Positions 2,829-28,569 of a stretch of 30,218 bases of DNA are shown in pieces. Each line of letters opens with the position of its first letter. Position 1 is the stretch's first letter. Source of the stretch: a virus. Both the position numbers and the translations under genes were made by a program. The DNA lies in the IMG/VR virus record IMGVR_UViG_3300037141_000189, positions 1-30,218 of that record. One strand, 5' to 3'. The notes under the pieces are model-generated. The model had not been told where the DNA came from. It ran no database searches and saw only the letters and a program-made list of their open reading frames with translations.

Positions 2829-4247
2829 TTACAAAAATTTACCTACGGGCTGCTTTAAGAAATTCCATACTTTCTGTAATGGTGTAGCAGTGCGATTCTG
2901 TAATACTTTCAGTAATTTAGTACCATCAGGCACACCTAGTCCGGTGCAGCAGTCATAGCCTTTCATAGCATCGAAGCCATTATTATTACCGCTGGTAACA
3001 TCAAAGAAAATTTCAGGGTGTTGATATAGCACTGGTAGAAGCGGAGGCACAGGTAAATAGCTAGACAGTACGGCGGTGAGTGCAGCCATGAGTGGTGCTA
3101 CGGCAGATGTACCACCAATAGCCATATCAGTTCCATCAATATTAACGATATAACCAGAATTGGGATCGGCGTTACCAGCAATGTCCGGCACTTTGCGCCC
3201 AGTATCAGAAATACCACCACCAGTTGCTCCATCACTATTCCACACAACTTCAGAGCGTCTAGTTCCATCAGGGTTTAAGATAAGCCTAGTACCACCACAG
3301 GCAATCGCGAAGCGACTAGATGCCGGATAGTCCACGTGATGTCCATCTAAGCCATCGCCTGCACCGTTATCACCAGCAGCTGCAAAGAAATTAATACCCT
3401 TGCTGACACATAGTTGAATTGCTGTATCCATAGCAGCTCTAGCATTTGGGTCCCAGTCACATTCCGGCATACCCCAGCTAATTGAAATTGCATCCGGCTT
3501 GAAGAAATACGTGCTCATACTACCAATAGCATCAATAAAACCATTAGTAGTATTGGGTGCAAATATAACAAGAATCTTGCAGCCAGGAGCAACAGCAGCT
3601 ACTACATCTATATCTAAACTAACTTCACCATCAGCACCATCCACACCATCAGGAATGTTAGAACCATCAGCTATGTTATGGAAGTATAGTCTAGGGGAGA
3701 CAATGCCTAAATCTTTACAGTATTTCATAATATGCTGAGAACTAAAGCCACCACCTAATTCTATAATGGCAATTACTTTATCCTTAATATCAGCTGTAGG
3801 TTTCGGGAAGTTGTAGGCTTTGGCAACTTGCATAGGAGTCAGGGGCTTCGGTCCAGAATTAGTAGCCGCAATAAACTCTCTAGCGGAAACTTGCTTACCA
3901 TCAATGGCATACAATGTTATTCCCCCATCGTCAGGGATTGTTAGACCGGATTCTATCAAAGCGGTAACGGGAGTTTGTTGGTGGCTTGGCCTTTTATACT
4001 GTCCAGCGCCATGAGCGTCAGATAGAATGCAGGCGATATCATCACCGAATTGTCTTTTAAGATGCGTAATGATGCCTGGGTTAGTTGCTTCAAATTTGAT
4101 TACATGCTTTTCGGGGAAAAATGCAGTTACTAGCTGGTTCTGGCGCAAGTATTTCACTACTTTAAGATGTTGTAAGATGACGTTCGCAGAAAAGGGTGCA
4201 TAGCCCGATGGGACCGAATGAGGCTTTAAATATATAGAATAACGCAT
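2829..4247 (-). CDS. S53 family (sedolisin/kumamolisin-like) serine-carboxyl peptidase
   Basis: 472 residues. Residues 1-135 look like an S53 pro-domain, including the typical PMQVAKAYNFP at the pro/catalytic junction (138-148). Catalytic Glu208 and Asp212 lie in GEVSLDID, the oxyanion Asp293 in AAGDNGAGD, and nucleophile Ser381 in GGTSAVAPL. Asp416-Val417 and GYDCCTGLG (430-438) match the C-terminal calcium site. All key residues are present, so an active acidic endopeptidase is expected. No signal peptide is visible, and the pro-domain is shorter than the roughly 180-190 residues usual in the family. A good AGGAG site lies seven bases before the ATG. It is divergently paired with the deacetylase gene. 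S53 peptidases are rarely seen in phage. The assignment rests on motifs read directly from the sequence. Confidence 0.93.
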   Translation of the reverse strand: MRYSIYLKPHSVPSGYAPFSANVILQHLKVVKYLRQNQLVTAFFPEKHVIKFEATNPGIITHLKRQFGDDIACILSDAHGAGQYKRPSHQQTPVTALIESGLTIPDDGGITLYAIDGKQVSAREFIAATNSGPKPLTPMQVAKAYNFPKPTADIKDKVIAIIELGGGFSSQHIMKYCKDLGIVSPRLYFHNIADGSNIPDGVDGADGEVSLDIDVVAAVAPGCKILVIFAPNTTNGFIDAIGSMSTYFFKPDAISISWGMPECDWDPNARAAMDTAIQLCVSKGINFFAAAGDNGAGDGLDGHHVDYPASSRFAIACGGTRLILNPDGTRRSEVVWNSDGATGGGISDTGRKVPDIAGNADPNSGYIVNIDGTDMAIGGTSAVAPLMAALTAVLSSYLPVPPLLPVLYQHPEIFFDVTSGNNNGFDAMKGYDCCTGLGVPDGTKLLKVLQNRTATPLQKVWNFLKQPVGKFL

Positions 4248-4318
4248 GTATCACTCCTAAACCAACAGATTTAATGTTAGCAGAAATAATCCGGGTGAAG
4301 GGTGAGGATATTCTAATA

Positions 4319-4480: not shown

Positions 4481-5302
4481 ATGAAGTTGAAGATCTTTGG
4501 CGACACCACCCCGATAGATTGGACTGCTATGGGTATAAAAATGCCGTTTGCACCTATGCATGATTTAGCGCAGTTGTATGAGTTAACACCACAGTATGAA
4601 AAAAACTTGGGTATGTTGATGACACTACAGCCGCAAGACATAGATAGGACATTTGAGACGCGCACTATAACCGCTCAGCAAGGCTGGGATTTAGCGCAAC
4701 GGATATCATATCGCGCTAAAAACACAATAGCCGCCCTGGACCAATGCACCCCCGACACAATCTGCATTAACCTAGGCGGCGGCTATCACCACGCTGGAAA
4801 GTATCCCGACACAGGGTATGCATATAGTCTGATTAACGATATTATTTGGGCGGTGGATTATCAGTTAGCACAGGATAAAAACATAGGGGTTTTAGATTTA
4901 GATTTTCACTTTGGTGGAGGAACGTTTGATTACTACCGAAATCACCCACAAGTATATGTGGTTGATCAGCATAATATCAAGCAAGGTATCTTGCATCAAC
5001 ATGAGATTGCGGAAAATAGTATACGTATTACAAATACTATTGAACAAACTGTCGTATCATCTGTCTACATACGCCGTAAAGATAAGCAGATTATTAATAT
5101 CGGAACAGATATTTGGAAAGGTGATGCTTTATTTGGTAAATATACTCATCGCGACGCAGAGAACGTATTAGAGTTTTGGATATCTGCAATTATGCAAGGT
5201 ATAGAGCAAGGGATACCAACAGCAATAACAATGGGCGGTGGCTATGGCCCTTATGGGCTAAAACTCTATGAGAGCCTTATTTCTTGGCTCTGCTGGTTAT
5301 AA
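4481..5302 (+). CDS. Histone-deacetylase-like Zn amidohydrolase (arginase/deacetylase fold)
   Basis: 273 residues from the ATG at 4481, chosen because it follows a GAGGGG ribosome site. An in-frame ATG at 4397 would add 28 poor residues. Class I/IV HDAC landmarks are all present: the His pair H103-H104 in GGGYHHAG, the charge-relay Asp139, zinc ligands D141 and H143 in VLDLDFHFGGG, zinc ligand D210 in GTDIWKGD, and catalytic Tyr255 in MGGGYG. GTDIWKGDALFG and the final GGGY are closest to class IV (HDAC11) style. It should hydrolyse an acetyl-amide on a protein, polyamine or small molecule; the substrate cannot be read. It is compact compared with 340-380 residues for most relatives. It lies between two hydrolases, S53 (divergent) and the proteasome-like gene (convergent). 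Confidence 0.9.
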   Translation: MKLKIFGDTTPIDWTAMGIKMPFAPMHDLAQLYELTPQYEKNLGMLMTLQPQDIDRTFETRTITAQQGWDLAQRISYRAKNTIAALDQCTPDTICINLGGGYHHAGKYPDTGYAYSLINDIIWAVDYQLAQDKNIGVLDLDFHFGGGTFDYYRNHPQVYVVDQHNIKQGILHQHEIAENSIRITNTIEQTVVSSVYIRRKDKQIINIGTDIWKGDALFGKYTHRDAENVLEFWISAIMQGIEQGIPTAITMGGGYGPYGLKLYESLISWLCWL

Positions 5303-5323: not shown

Positions 5324-5343
5324 TAATCGGAATATTCCGATTA
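5324..5343. terminator. 20-bp perfect palindrome between convergent genes
   Basis: TAATCGGAAT followed by ATTCCGATTA lies between the convergent deacetylase and Ntn-hydrolase genes and includes the stop codon of the latter (5341-5343). It could form a hairpin and act as a bidirectional terminator, although there is no clean T-tract. A protein-binding site is the alternative. Confidence 0.4.
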
Positions 5344-5919
5344 CTTCTTCGGCGTTATTGTCCCAGGCATAACCAATTCTGGCATCCTTACATCTATATC
5401 AATAAGTTTATGTGTAGCATCAGGTGCTACGATAGATTTTATTGCGCCGCCAGTGAAAATATCATGATCGCGGGAATATTCAAGAGCTTGAACGGCTGTT
5501 TTACCAGCTAAAACCGCGCCTAATGCAATGTCACCACCAGTACCCATTGCGAAAGGTGGTTCGATTGAAGATATAGTTTGAAGATCTCCGCCGTAAAATA
5601 AGGCGATTCCACTGTCATAAACGACTAAAATGTACACAAGATCATCTTCATCTTTAGGTTGTCCCAGCTCTAGACTGGATAATGGATCGGCGTTTTCTAG
5701 AAAATATTGAATTACTAAATGAGCTTTTAAAGCATTACCTGCTACAGCAACCGATGCATGTCTAACATCTGATCGGGCGATTTTTCGGGCTGAAAGTGTT
5801 TTATGGTGTCCCATGCTGCTTTGGCTGTCTGCTGCAAGTATGTGTCCATCCCAACAAACCGTAGTGGCCAGACATGGACTAGCTATAAGTAACGCCGCTA
5901 ACAAAGACAATAGACGCAT
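5341..5919 (-). CDS. Exported proteasome-beta/HslV-like Ntn hydrolase
   Basis: 192 residues. Residues 1-18 form a Sec signal peptide (MRLLSLLAALLIASPCLA) with a cleavage site after CLA. The mature chain would begin TTVCWDGHILAAD, matching the TT(I/V) start of proteasome beta and HslV, where Thr1 is the nucleophile. Asp13 and Lys28 (mature numbering) fit the catalytic Asp17/Lys33 pair, and AMGTGGDIALGAVLAG matches the conserved GSGG/ALGA helix (Thr replaces Ser). The mature length of 174 equals that of HslV (about 175). Phage relatives I know start MTT and rely on Met removal; here there is no internal Met before Thr19. A lipobox is excluded because proline precedes the cysteine. GAGGG ribosome site six bases before the ATG. 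No partner ATPase or HslU gene is in the window. The peptidase role is inferred. Confidence 0.82.
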   Translation of the reverse strand: MRLLSLLAALLIASPCLATTVCWDGHILAADSQSSMGHHKTLSARKIARSDVRHASVAVAGNALKAHLVIQYFLENADPLSSLELGQPKDEDDLVYILVVYDSGIALFYGGDLQTISSIEPPFAMGTGGDIALGAVLAGKTAVQALEYSRDHDIFTGGAIKSIVAPDATHKLIDIDVRMPELVMPGTITPKK

Positions 5920-5942
5920 AGAGATCCCTCTGAAGAATTAAC

Positions 5943-6833
5943 TTATTGTAACACACCTTGTTTCAGCTTCTTTAAAGAATTGAGAATCTGAATGAACGTA
6001 TGTTCACCTGAATTACGATGGCAAAACATGACATTGGCTGCGGGGTTGAGAGATAAATTACTACATTGCGTATCGAAGCCTAGTTCATGGCACACAGGGC
6101 ACAACCCCTCTAATTCGCCATTCTGAGTGTCTTTAAACGGCCAATCGTCAGGAAAATTGGATAGTAATTCGCCTTCAGGGCGCGCGGTAGCTACACGGCG
6201 CTTAGGTTTAGCCGGTAAGTGAGGTAATGTTGCACATACTGACAAGACATGCTCAGCCGAATTAAGCGGCTGGCTTAAGAACCAGAATAACTGGGTAGTT
6301 ATGTCTTTACTGGGGCAGGCATCAAATAGACCCCAGTTCTTAGCACTAGGCTTCTGGTTTACACCAAGTGGTAATCTTACCAAGTTTCCAGGCTTCAGGG
6401 GATTTACAAGTTCGGATTGGACTGGATAAACTTCGCAGTGTGCCTCTGAGCAAAATCTAGCATAGCAGGCAAGGTTGTAAGCGTCTGCGCTTCTGATGGG
6501 TGATTCAATAAATACCCATATATGTCCGGAGCGACCTTGCCGCATAGACTCACGGAGGCTACTAATTCCACGGCTATCCAGCCACAAGCGCAGCCTATCC
6601 ACAGCATCTTCTTGTTCTTCGTCAAAATCCCAACAAATCCATTTGCAAGTATTTTCAGCGCTGGTTGTATAAACTCCTAATGTAGTAATCCCTAGGAAAT
6701 GATTCTCTAATAGCGCATCGGTAATCGGCTCATAAACAGCCATGTAACCATGTCTAGTGGGCGTTGCCCATTGTTCAGCATGTACATCAGGGCGATTGCA
6801 GAGGCGATTTAGGTAGCGGTGGGCTGGATTCAT
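5943..6833 (-). CDS. Archaeo-eukaryotic primase (AEP), TOTE type, with C-terminal zinc motif
   Basis: 296 residues. The primase core has the metal-binding Asp69 and Asp71 in ICWDFDEE, GRSGHIWVFIE (100-110) and CEVYPVQSEL (133-142), then GNLVRLPLGVNQK (149-161). This series is characteristic of AEP primases of the TOTE conflict-system clade. C245, C248, C271 and H272 (or H278) form a CHC2-like zinc knuckle. It should make primers for phage DNA replication. Unlike TOTE proteins it is not fused to a helicase; the SF2 and D5 helicases of this phage are separate genes. AAGGA ribosome site five bases before the ATG. Its start lies inside the 3' end of the next gene upstream (47-bp overlap). Confidence 0.85.
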   Translation of the reverse strand: MNPAHRYLNRLCNRPDVHAEQWATPTRHGYMAVYEPITDALLENHFLGITTLGVYTTSAENTCKWICWDFDEEQEDAVDRLRLWLDSRGISSLRESMRQGRSGHIWVFIESPIRSADAYNLACYARFCSEAHCEVYPVQSELVNPLKPGNLVRLPLGVNQKPSAKNWGLFDACPSKDITTQLFWFLSQPLNSAEHVLSVCATLPHLPAKPKRRVATARPEGELLSNFPDDWPFKDTQNGELEGLCPVCHELGFDTQCSNLSLNPAANVMFCHRNSGEHTFIQILNSLKKLKQGVLQ

Positions 6834-20033: not shown

Positions 20034-20196
20034 CCCTCAACGAATATCTGCTGTGATGAAATTAGTCACAGCCCTATGGACAGCTAATCCTGATTTACGG
20101 TTGATGCAGTTGTTATTAAACGTATCGGCTGGTTATGTTACAGAAGATGATGAACTAGTAGACTTTTTGCAAGAATATTATGGTGACGTGAAGTGA
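20026..20196 (+). CDS. Small protein of the RDPxRI...PDLRLxQLL type
   Basis: 56 residues. Reads MRDPQRISAVMKLVTALWTA, then NPDLRLMQLLLN and TEDDELVDFLQEYYG. This pattern is that of a widespread small bacterial and phage family with no known function. AGGAGG eight bases before the ATG is the best ribosome site in this stretch. Overlaps the upstream gene by 8 bp. Confidence 0.75.
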   Translation: MRDPQRISAVMKLVTALWTANPDLRLMQLLLNVSAGYVTEDDELVDFLQEYYGDVK

Positions 20197-20486
20197 GATA
20201 TCTCTTAATTCTATTATTATTAGCCTCCCCCGCTTATGCTGAAGATTCTTACCAAGCTGCATGTGTACTATTTGGGCAAGCAATGGAATGTCGCGCCACT
20301 GCTCCTGATAAAGCTATCAAACTAGCCAGCGCAGCACTGGAGGATTTAGATTTAGATAAAACAGACCAGCACCAGTGTATGCGTATTAACATCAACCTAT
20401 ATTTAGCGCTGTTGTATTTACAACAGGGCGAAACTGATACCGCTAAGGCACATATTATATTAGCTGCGATGGCAAACCATGAGTAA
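20193..20486 (+). CDS. Exported small protein with helical repeat-like body
   Basis: 97 residues from a GTG start overlapping the previous stop (GTGA). Residues 1-16 (MRYLLILLLLASPAYA) are a Sec signal peptide with an AYA cleavage site. The mature part (AIKLASAALEDLDL, then INLYLALLYLQQGETDTAKA) has TPR-like helix-pair character, and there are three Cys. It is one of three clearly exported proteins of the window. Host target or function unknown. Confidence 0.7.
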   Translation: MRYLLILLLLASPAYAEDSYQAACVLFGQAMECRATAPDKAIKLASAALEDLDLDKTDQHQCMRININLYLALLYLQQGETDTAKAHIILAAMANHE

Positions 20487-27724: not shown

Positions 27725-28177
27725 TTACGGTTTACATACTTTCGCACTACTAGGTAACCAATCATTAACTGTTGGTCTTTCAAGTATGCAAGCGCTCTTA
27801 ATGATGTTGTCTAATATTTTGTCATCGGCTTGCCGTATTTCGGCTATTGCCATACAGGCGGATGATATGAGATAAGAGCCGATACTAGTATTGCTATCTA
27901 TATTATGTTGATCGCGATACTCAATGCCAGTAATAATAGATTGAGCGCCGATAGTCATGTATCTGCCAGGAGCTAAGGTATAAGTTAACGTGTTAGTTTT
28001 AATATGTACCATGCCCGCATGAGGTTGGAACAGGTTATAAACACTGGTTGACTTATCTGTTGTATGTATAAATACGATCGCGCCTTGATCTATTGTTACG
28101 ATAGCTTGCGGCGTATGTATCATACTATTTATAGATATCAAGACCATAACTGCTGTATTAATAATTAGCTCATGCAT
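27725..28177 (-). CDS. Exported or membrane-anchored beta-rich protein
   Basis: 150 residues with an N-terminal hydrophobic segment (IINTAVMVLISINSMI) followed by beta strands (AIVTIDQGAIVFIH, VHIKTNTLTYTLAPGRYMTI). The APGRYMTIG strand is reminiscent of FecR-like domains. Cysteines near the C-terminus. It follows the PDZ-like exported gene directly (one-base overlap), so the two probably work in the same compartment. Function inferred from location only. Confidence 0.6.
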   Translation of the reverse strand: MHELIINTAVMVLISINSMIHTPQAIVTIDQGAIVFIHTTDKSTSVYNLFQPHAGMVHIKTNTLTYTLAPGRYMTIGAQSIITGIEYRDQHNIDSNTSIGSYLISSACMAIAEIRQADDKILDNIIKSACILERPTVNDWLPSSAKVCKP

Positions 28178-28569
28178 TACTTTAACCTCACTGGCAATAC
28201 TCTGACCTTATCATATTTATCCCTGACCGTGATATTCATAATAAAACCAACAGGATATAGTGACACGCTAGGTAGTAAACAGGGTCTGTATTGTTCGCGC
28301 TCTATCTTAATAATATAATCGCCTATTTGTACTTTGCCGTATAGATCACTTGTTGGAGAGATATAAAGTATCTGCCCGGTATGTTGATTAACTGTTACGC
28401 CTATAAGACCACGCAAGACTACGGCGCTAATCCGACTAGTTAGCTTACCTCTTTTATCTAATACAGGTGTTCTAGGGCATAGCAAGACCGGCTCATTATG
28501 AATTACATTACCTTGGAGCGGCTTGGCGTATACGGGAGTTAATAATAATAATAAGAATAATAGTATCAT
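28177..28569 (-). CDS. Exported PDZ-like domain protein
   Basis: 130 residues. Residues 1-15 (MILLFLLLLLTPVYA) are a Sec signal peptide with a VYA cleavage site. The mature part has a PDZ-like layout: VLRGLIGVTVNQ (51-62) with the GLIGV carboxylate-binding loop, IYISPTSDLYGKVQIGD then YIIKIERE (85-92), and a closing strand VRVLPVRLK. PDZ domains recognise C-termini and often serve periplasmic proteases. No protease domain is fused here. Paired with the exported beta-rich gene downstream. Confidence 0.7.
   Translation of the reverse strand: MILLFLLLLLTPVYAKPLQGNVIHNEPVLLCPRTPVLDKRGKLTSRISAVVLRGLIGVTVNQHTGQILYISPTSDLYGKVQIGDYIIKIEREQYRPCLLPSVSLYPVGFIMNITVRDKYDKVRVLPVRLK

Follow-up and report, generated by a model that had tools for sequence, protein, structure and literature searches.

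A phage proteasome-like protein with a predicted signal peptide directly before its presumed catalytic threonine

Proteasome-like enzymes are known as proteins of the cytosol, whose Thr1 arises by removal of the initiator methionine or by autolysis of a propeptide. The locus described here raises the question of how Thr1 might be exposed in a phage-encoded member of this group in which a signal-like leader stands immediately before the threonine. The window, that is, the whole stretch of DNA analysed, comprises the 30,218 bases of IMG/VR virus record IMGVR_UViG_3300037141_000189 and may, going by the record's class, be a fragment. It encodes a terminase and an endolysin-type amidase, which bears out the phage carriage of the gene that had been proposed from the sequence alone; no tRNAs were found in it. 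Its top terminase relatives are only 32-35% identical, and their phages infect very different hosts.

Gene start, family and predicted fold

Features of the locus are summarized in Table 1. The sequence-only reading had placed a proteasome-like hydrolase at 5341-5919. The open reading frame (ORF) there is real and lies on the minus strand, running from 5919 to 5341; the plus-strand frame at the same place is riddled with stops. The encoded protein begins with the leader MRLLSLLAALLIASPCLA, followed at once by the mature chain, TTVCWDGHILAADSQ. Its ATG stands 23 nt past the AEP-type primase gene, and the long start is supported by the GAGG that precedes it. The codon before Thr19 is GCC (Ala), which is not a start codon, and the sole in-frame alternative start near TTV is a CTG at codon 17 that has no Shine-Dalgarno sequence before it.

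Table 1. Coordinates of the proteasome-like gene, its parts and its neighbours in the window (G002 and L113 are related phages described in the text)
Feature	Position	Strand	Remarks
S53 kumamolisin/sedolisin-like peptidase	2829..4247	minus	near the gene also in G002 and L113
Histone-deacetylase/acetylpolyamine-amidohydrolase-like protein	4481..5302	plus	convergent; adjoins the gene in G002 too
PPH/HslV-family gene with signal peptide	5341..5919	minus	192 aa, stop included in coordinates; phrog_1040 E 1.9e-25
Mature domain, 174 aa	5344..5865	minus	predicted proteasome-beta/HslV fold; residues ~151-174 a low-confidence tail
Asp153 (mature Asp135), DxxTGG motif	5461..5463	minus	equivalent of proteasome beta Asp166
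Gly61 (mature Gly43)	5737..5739	minus	aligns with oxyanion-hole Gly47
Lys46 (mature Lys28)	5782..5784	minus	aligns with proteasome/HslV Lys33
Asp31 (mature Asp13)	5827..5829	minus	aligns with proteasome/HslV Asp17
Codon for Thr19 (mature Thr1), presumed nucleophile	5863..5865	minus	invariant in 36 aligned sequences
Predicted Sec signal peptide MRLLSLLAALLIASPCLA, residues 1-18	5866..5919	minus	top cleavage site between CLA and TT; crude von Heijne-type score; architecture found in three other phages
Shine-Dalgarno-like GAGG	5927..5930	minus	7 nt 5' of ATG
AEP/TOTE-type primase	5943..6833	minus	directly upstream; same place in two relatives

In a profile search, the family phrog_1040 ("peptidase HslV family") covered residues 19-167 of the protein. 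The homology to HslV and the proteasome begins exactly at Thr19, and a tblastn search against GenBank phages returned 181 records, with residue 19 as the start of every match listed. The proteasome/HslV-like N-terminal block recognized from the letters alone is thus genuine, and the family to which it belongs is the phage class PPH (phrog_1040) rather than HslV. A true HslV identity was rejected because phrog_1040 is the best family and the cut-offs of the NCBIfam HslV/proteasome models were not reached; no HslV equivalog matched, and the protein also stayed under the cut-off of the Pfam Proteasome model. (The top profile match, to dTor, was discarded as a repeat artefact.) Our assignment of the protein to PPH rests on the described features of the class, on fold and on carriage by phages, not on PPH alignments. 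The protein shares with that class the sequence family, carriage by phages, the Thr1/Asp/Lys/Gly site, a proteasome-beta fold without helix H2 and the lack of a known unfoldase partner; it differs in that a signal peptide replaces Met1. The class is described as having no N-terminal propeptide and a Met before Thr1, and here an 18-aa signal-like leader stands instead. As a Met directly before Thr1 describes the class rather than defines it, we call the protein a PPH variant.

The fold was modelled with AF2 on the mature chain using 36 sequences (mean pLDDT 87.5, pTM 0.81, and 97 over the first ten residues), and the model predicts with high confidence that the chain adopts the proteasome-beta/HslV fold, as the sequence-only reading had expected of an Ntn hydrolase. 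A Foldseek search of the PDB gave HslV, proteasome beta and BPH, with no competing non-proteasome family among the top matches. VIA-align gave a Z of 17.8 to Staphylococcus aureus HslV (6kr1; rmsd 2.6 over 145) and of 17.1-17.7 to BPH and Escherichia coli HslV, and residue 1 of the model superposes on residue 1 of the latter. The model contains H1 at 45-57, a strand at 77-83 that is not preceded by a long helix, and H3/H4 at 111-134; H2 is absent from it, in agreement with the PPH description. The last ~24 residues form a low-confidence tail, so that the mature length of 174 aa was correctly read but its equality with that of HslV is coincidental: the ordered core comprises ~150 aa, PPH ~140 residues and the closest relatives 141-154 aa.

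By profile alignment to proteasome beta5, the catalytic Thr1, Asp17 and Lys33 and the oxyanion Gly47 correspond to T1, D13, K28 and G43, all of which belong to the residues invariant in the 36 sequences (T1, T2, D13, K28, G43, G108, G110, G121, A127 and D135). HslV (ClpQ) has the same fold (Z ~17-18), Thr1 and the equivalents of Asp17 and Lys33, but is only about 20-24% identical over the structural alignment, whereas the window protein lacks H2 and is predicted to be exported. BPH (Z 17.1) is likewise a group I proteasome-like protein without a propeptide or known unfoldase (PMC5777263); it differs in having H2 and a longer pore loop, and has not been described as exported (PMC5777263).

Signal-like leaders in four phages

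Relatives of the protein ordinarily start one codon before the threonine. A scan of IMG/VR with the single protein as query gave no matches, and alignment-based scans were needed. In all 34 non-redundant IMG/VR relatives a start codon stands directly before Thr1 (ATG in 21, GTG in 7, TTG in 1 and ATA, ATC or ATT in 5), and in the GenBank relatives inspected, 16 from phages and 2 from plasmids, the annotated start always lies one codon before the Thr; compared with these 34 and 18 sequences, the window protein alone has a leader. Homologs with extra residues before TTV, which would have spoken against the sequence-only reading, were not seen among the 34, each having one start codon before TT. 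Among 398 Pseudomonadota genomes, 11 contained matches. Nine rows had a readable start: two were PPH (Met-TT), and seven were HslV-like, of which some carry a short non-signal leader. None of the nine was signal-bearing. A scan of the genome collection with three signal-bearing sequences as queries gave one relative, which has no signal peptide.

The five ATT, ATC or ATA codons at the place of Met1 (L023:3998-4000, L025:3998-4000, L033:3611-3613, L069:3998-4000 and L074:3998-4000) form an observation in their own right. A good Shine-Dalgarno sequence lies 7-8 nt before the codon in the five scored cases (5/34 non-redundant sequences), and second paralogs in two of the phages described below have such a codon at the same place (L113 ~1221-1223; L107 ~1510-1512, for G002). 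Start codons of the AUH type thus seem to recur among phage HslV-family genes.

Leaders were assessed with a home-made, approximate n-, h- and c-region rule, with (-3,-1) preferences taken from general knowledge, plus hydropathy. By this score the window leader has n-, h- and c-regions, its residues at -3 and -1 being small, and its best predicted cleavage site falls immediately before Thr19, as the sequence-only reading had it. Nine of the 87 window ORFs scored pass at all, the window protein ranking second, and shuffled N-termini equal its score in 0.5% of cases. By this figure, and by the recurrence of the architecture in three other phages, the arrangement goes beyond chance. A lipoprotein (SPase II) leader was considered and rejected: ...IASPC has Pro before the Cys, and the other three leaders described below contain no lipobox. 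Further small proteins with signal-like N-termini occur in the window (20193-20486, plus strand; 28177-28569, minus strand) and elsewhere (L108:18444-19118; L117:6569-7213, minus strand). One such N-terminus reads MRYLLILLLLASPAYA followed by EDS, and one signal-like protein of L117, judged by eye, resembles a phospholipase-D/nuclease. Phages of the window type seem, from their predicted N-termini, to export several proteins.

The search for homologs of the same arrangement that the sequence-only reading had proposed was successful: at least three other phages have a leader before TT, each with a different leader sequence, in proteins 29-41% identical to that of the window. G002 (IMGVR_UViG_3300037116_000074, 72 kb), a close relative found by a terminase scan, is syntenic with the window (572-aa portal-like protein 77%, primase 54%, deacetylase 56% and S53 peptidase 61% identical); its homolog is 37% identical and has the leader MKGFLLLFSFISIGNFLLPAYC followed by TTIAWSG. 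L113 (IMGVR_UViG_3300047585_000046), found by alignment scans, has MKLLTLLFCLLLMAPVQA followed by TTIAYDG, and L117 (IMGVR_UViG_3300047994_000087, 147 kb), found by a pattern scan, has MHKFLAPLAALILSTAPALA followed by TTIAFDG. The DNA-pattern scans for Ala-Thr-Thr-...-Asp-Gly gave L117 and L119 as true homologs; the other matches were unrelated structural or LamG-like proteins. Against phrog_1040 the relatives score E 1.8e-27 to 4e-32, and L117 reaches 15.4-15.8 bits with NCBIfam HslV models whose cut-offs are 137-158. The TGG motif reads TSD in L117, making catalytic activity less certain there. The final viral scan gave no further leader-bearing case; the patterns used in the searches demanded particular residues and may have missed rarer signal-bearing members (e.g., with Gly or Ser at -1).

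In all four phages the top-scoring site lies directly before TT (CLA in the window, AYC in G002, VQA in L113 and ALA in L117), though in L117 another, two residues earlier, scores as high, and in G002 the score is moderate to weak (3.5), with Cys at -1. The start codon of the G002 gene is uncertain (TTG or GTG), and the L113 gene has no clear Shine-Dalgarno sequence. In a maximum likelihood tree of 49 sequences, the four leader-bearing proteins form one group (support 90/93), consistent with a single gain of the predicted signal peptide. The leaders vary while TT stays in register, the pattern expected from selection for cleavage at Thr1.

Neighbouring genes and second paralogs

The gene shares its minus-strand block with an N-acetylmuramoyl-L-alanine amidase and the kumamolisin-like S53 peptidase, neighbours that give at most a hint of envelope or protein breakdown. 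In L113 the gene sits between homologs of the AEP-type primase and the S53-type peptidase. The phage S53 peptidase (kumamolisin E 7e-74; also at L108:7835-9334 and L113:6785-8155) has a shortened N-terminal part in which no signal peptide is evident. The deacetylase-like protein of the window (4481-5302, plus strand) is 56% identical to that at L108:7042-7902 (minus strand), which is likewise convergent to the proteasome-like gene.

L113 and L117 each encode a further phrog_1040 protein that lacks a signal peptide, about 4 kb off in the contig of L113 and directly upstream in L117, where the two genes form an adjacent pair on one strand (3768-4289 and 3182-3718, both minus), one product starting Met-Thr and the other having the signal peptide. 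The second match in G002 is weaker (E 2e-9), and ATT is the sole candidate start before the domain in its open frame. A signal-less second copy is therefore present in L113 and L117 and probably also in G002. The second paralogs form a separate clade in the tree. The window, a fragment, has one phrog_1040 match only. No HslU or unfoldase gene was named in family scans of part of its ORFs, which agrees with the earlier statement that the window holds none, although in a 30 kb fragment this is weak evidence. A periplasmic location would fit the absence of an unfoldase.

Exposure of Thr1 and its meaning for the family

We consider it likely, on the predicted leader, cleavage site and active site, that the protein is exported through Sec and works as a threonine hydrolase independent of ATP, with signal peptidase I exposing its nucleophile. 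An Ntn hydrolase of the PPH class would have been converted to a Sec-exported enzyme. Host signal peptidase I would cut the translocated precursor between Ala18 and Thr19, freeing the protein into the periplasm, or to the outside if the host is Gram-positive, and the same cut would create the free alpha-amino group and the hydroxyl of Thr1. Needing neither ATP nor an unfoldase, the folded mature domain would then attack an envelope substrate as a threonine amide hydrolase or peptidase, and the cytosolic job would in the other phages be left to the second paralog without a signal peptide. The wider proposition, that a branch of proteasome-like proteins matures through signal peptidase I, with one cut both exporting and activating an ATP-independent envelope threonine hydrolase while a cytosolic paralog is kept, we hold to be probable, with somewhat less assurance.

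The codons at -1 (GCC in the window, TGC in G002, GCA in L113 and GCC in L117) include no start codon, so methionine removal cannot expose Thr1 in the four leader-bearing phages. It does not follow that signal peptidase I is the only route, as had been claimed from the sequence; this was too strong, since non-signal leaders of HslV proteins also end in Ala before TT. The core of the sequence-only reading stands, with strand, family and the word "only" put right. The main alternative, which we regard as unlikely, is that the leader serves export and autoproteolysis frees Thr1, in the manner of proteasome beta propeptides and the exported penicillin G and AHL acylases. The catalytic residues of the window protein are complete, exported Ntn acylases that combine a signal peptide with autolysis exist (PMC5474475), and the HslVs of the genome scan have Ala, Ser or Gly as the last leader residue, directly before TT, among them three with a non-signal leader ending in FHA before TTI or TTC, whose Ala at -1 fits maturation by other means than signal peptidase. 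Against autolysis, the leader is compact, with n-, h- and c-regions, its best signal peptidase I-type site falls exactly at Thr1 and no propeptide lies between; moreover, Fuchs et al. place propeptides in proteasome beta and HslV only (PMC8665760), none being found in homologs beyond these.

Phages use signal-arrest-release domains in some endolysins, and the N-terminal segment could by analogy be an uncleaved membrane anchor or SAR-type domain, its cleavage being a prediction; Thr1 would then never be free, and the protein would be non-catalytic or a membrane-tethered binder. This we judge very improbable, as all four leaders have a hydrophobic core and, behind it, small residues at -3 and -1, their lengths of about 18-26 aa suit cleavable signals, and the catalytic residues are kept although activity requires a free Thr1. 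That the start has been mis-called, the leader being untranslated and the product an ordinary cytosolic phage HslV-family protein beginning at or just before TTV like all other family members checked, is scarcely credible given the -1 codons, the spacing of the Shine-Dalgarno sequence from the ATG and signal-like leaders in four divergent genes.

Maturation by signal peptidase I would set the protein apart from the systems it most resembles. Some Gram-negative Cys-Ntn enzymes resembling penicillin V acylase and bile salt hydrolase may free their nucleophile by removal of a signal peptide. The exported penicillin G and AHL acylases share the Ntn nucleophile and signal-peptide export (PMC5474475) but belong to another Ntn family, in which autolysis at an internal site, not removal of the signal peptide, exposes the nucleophile. 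Export or a periplasmic location does not appear in the main text of Fuchs et al. (PMC8665760), and our search of the open-access literature gave no report of exported proteasome-like or phage HslV proteins or of a signal peptide in the family. The variant of this known phage protein class with a predicted signal peptide is real and conserved, and apparently unreported.

If the proposed maturation is true, a signal peptidase cut that makes the nucleophile would be a third route to Thr1, and would place the family in the bacterial envelope, without ATP and with an activity strictly dependent on export. The uncharacterised PPH class thereby gains a testable handle on its site of work, its need for a ring or unfoldase and its use to the phage. 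Connectase, a relative, is a ligase (PMC8665760), and the phage protein, if active, may provide a compact secreted threonine hydrolase or ligase.
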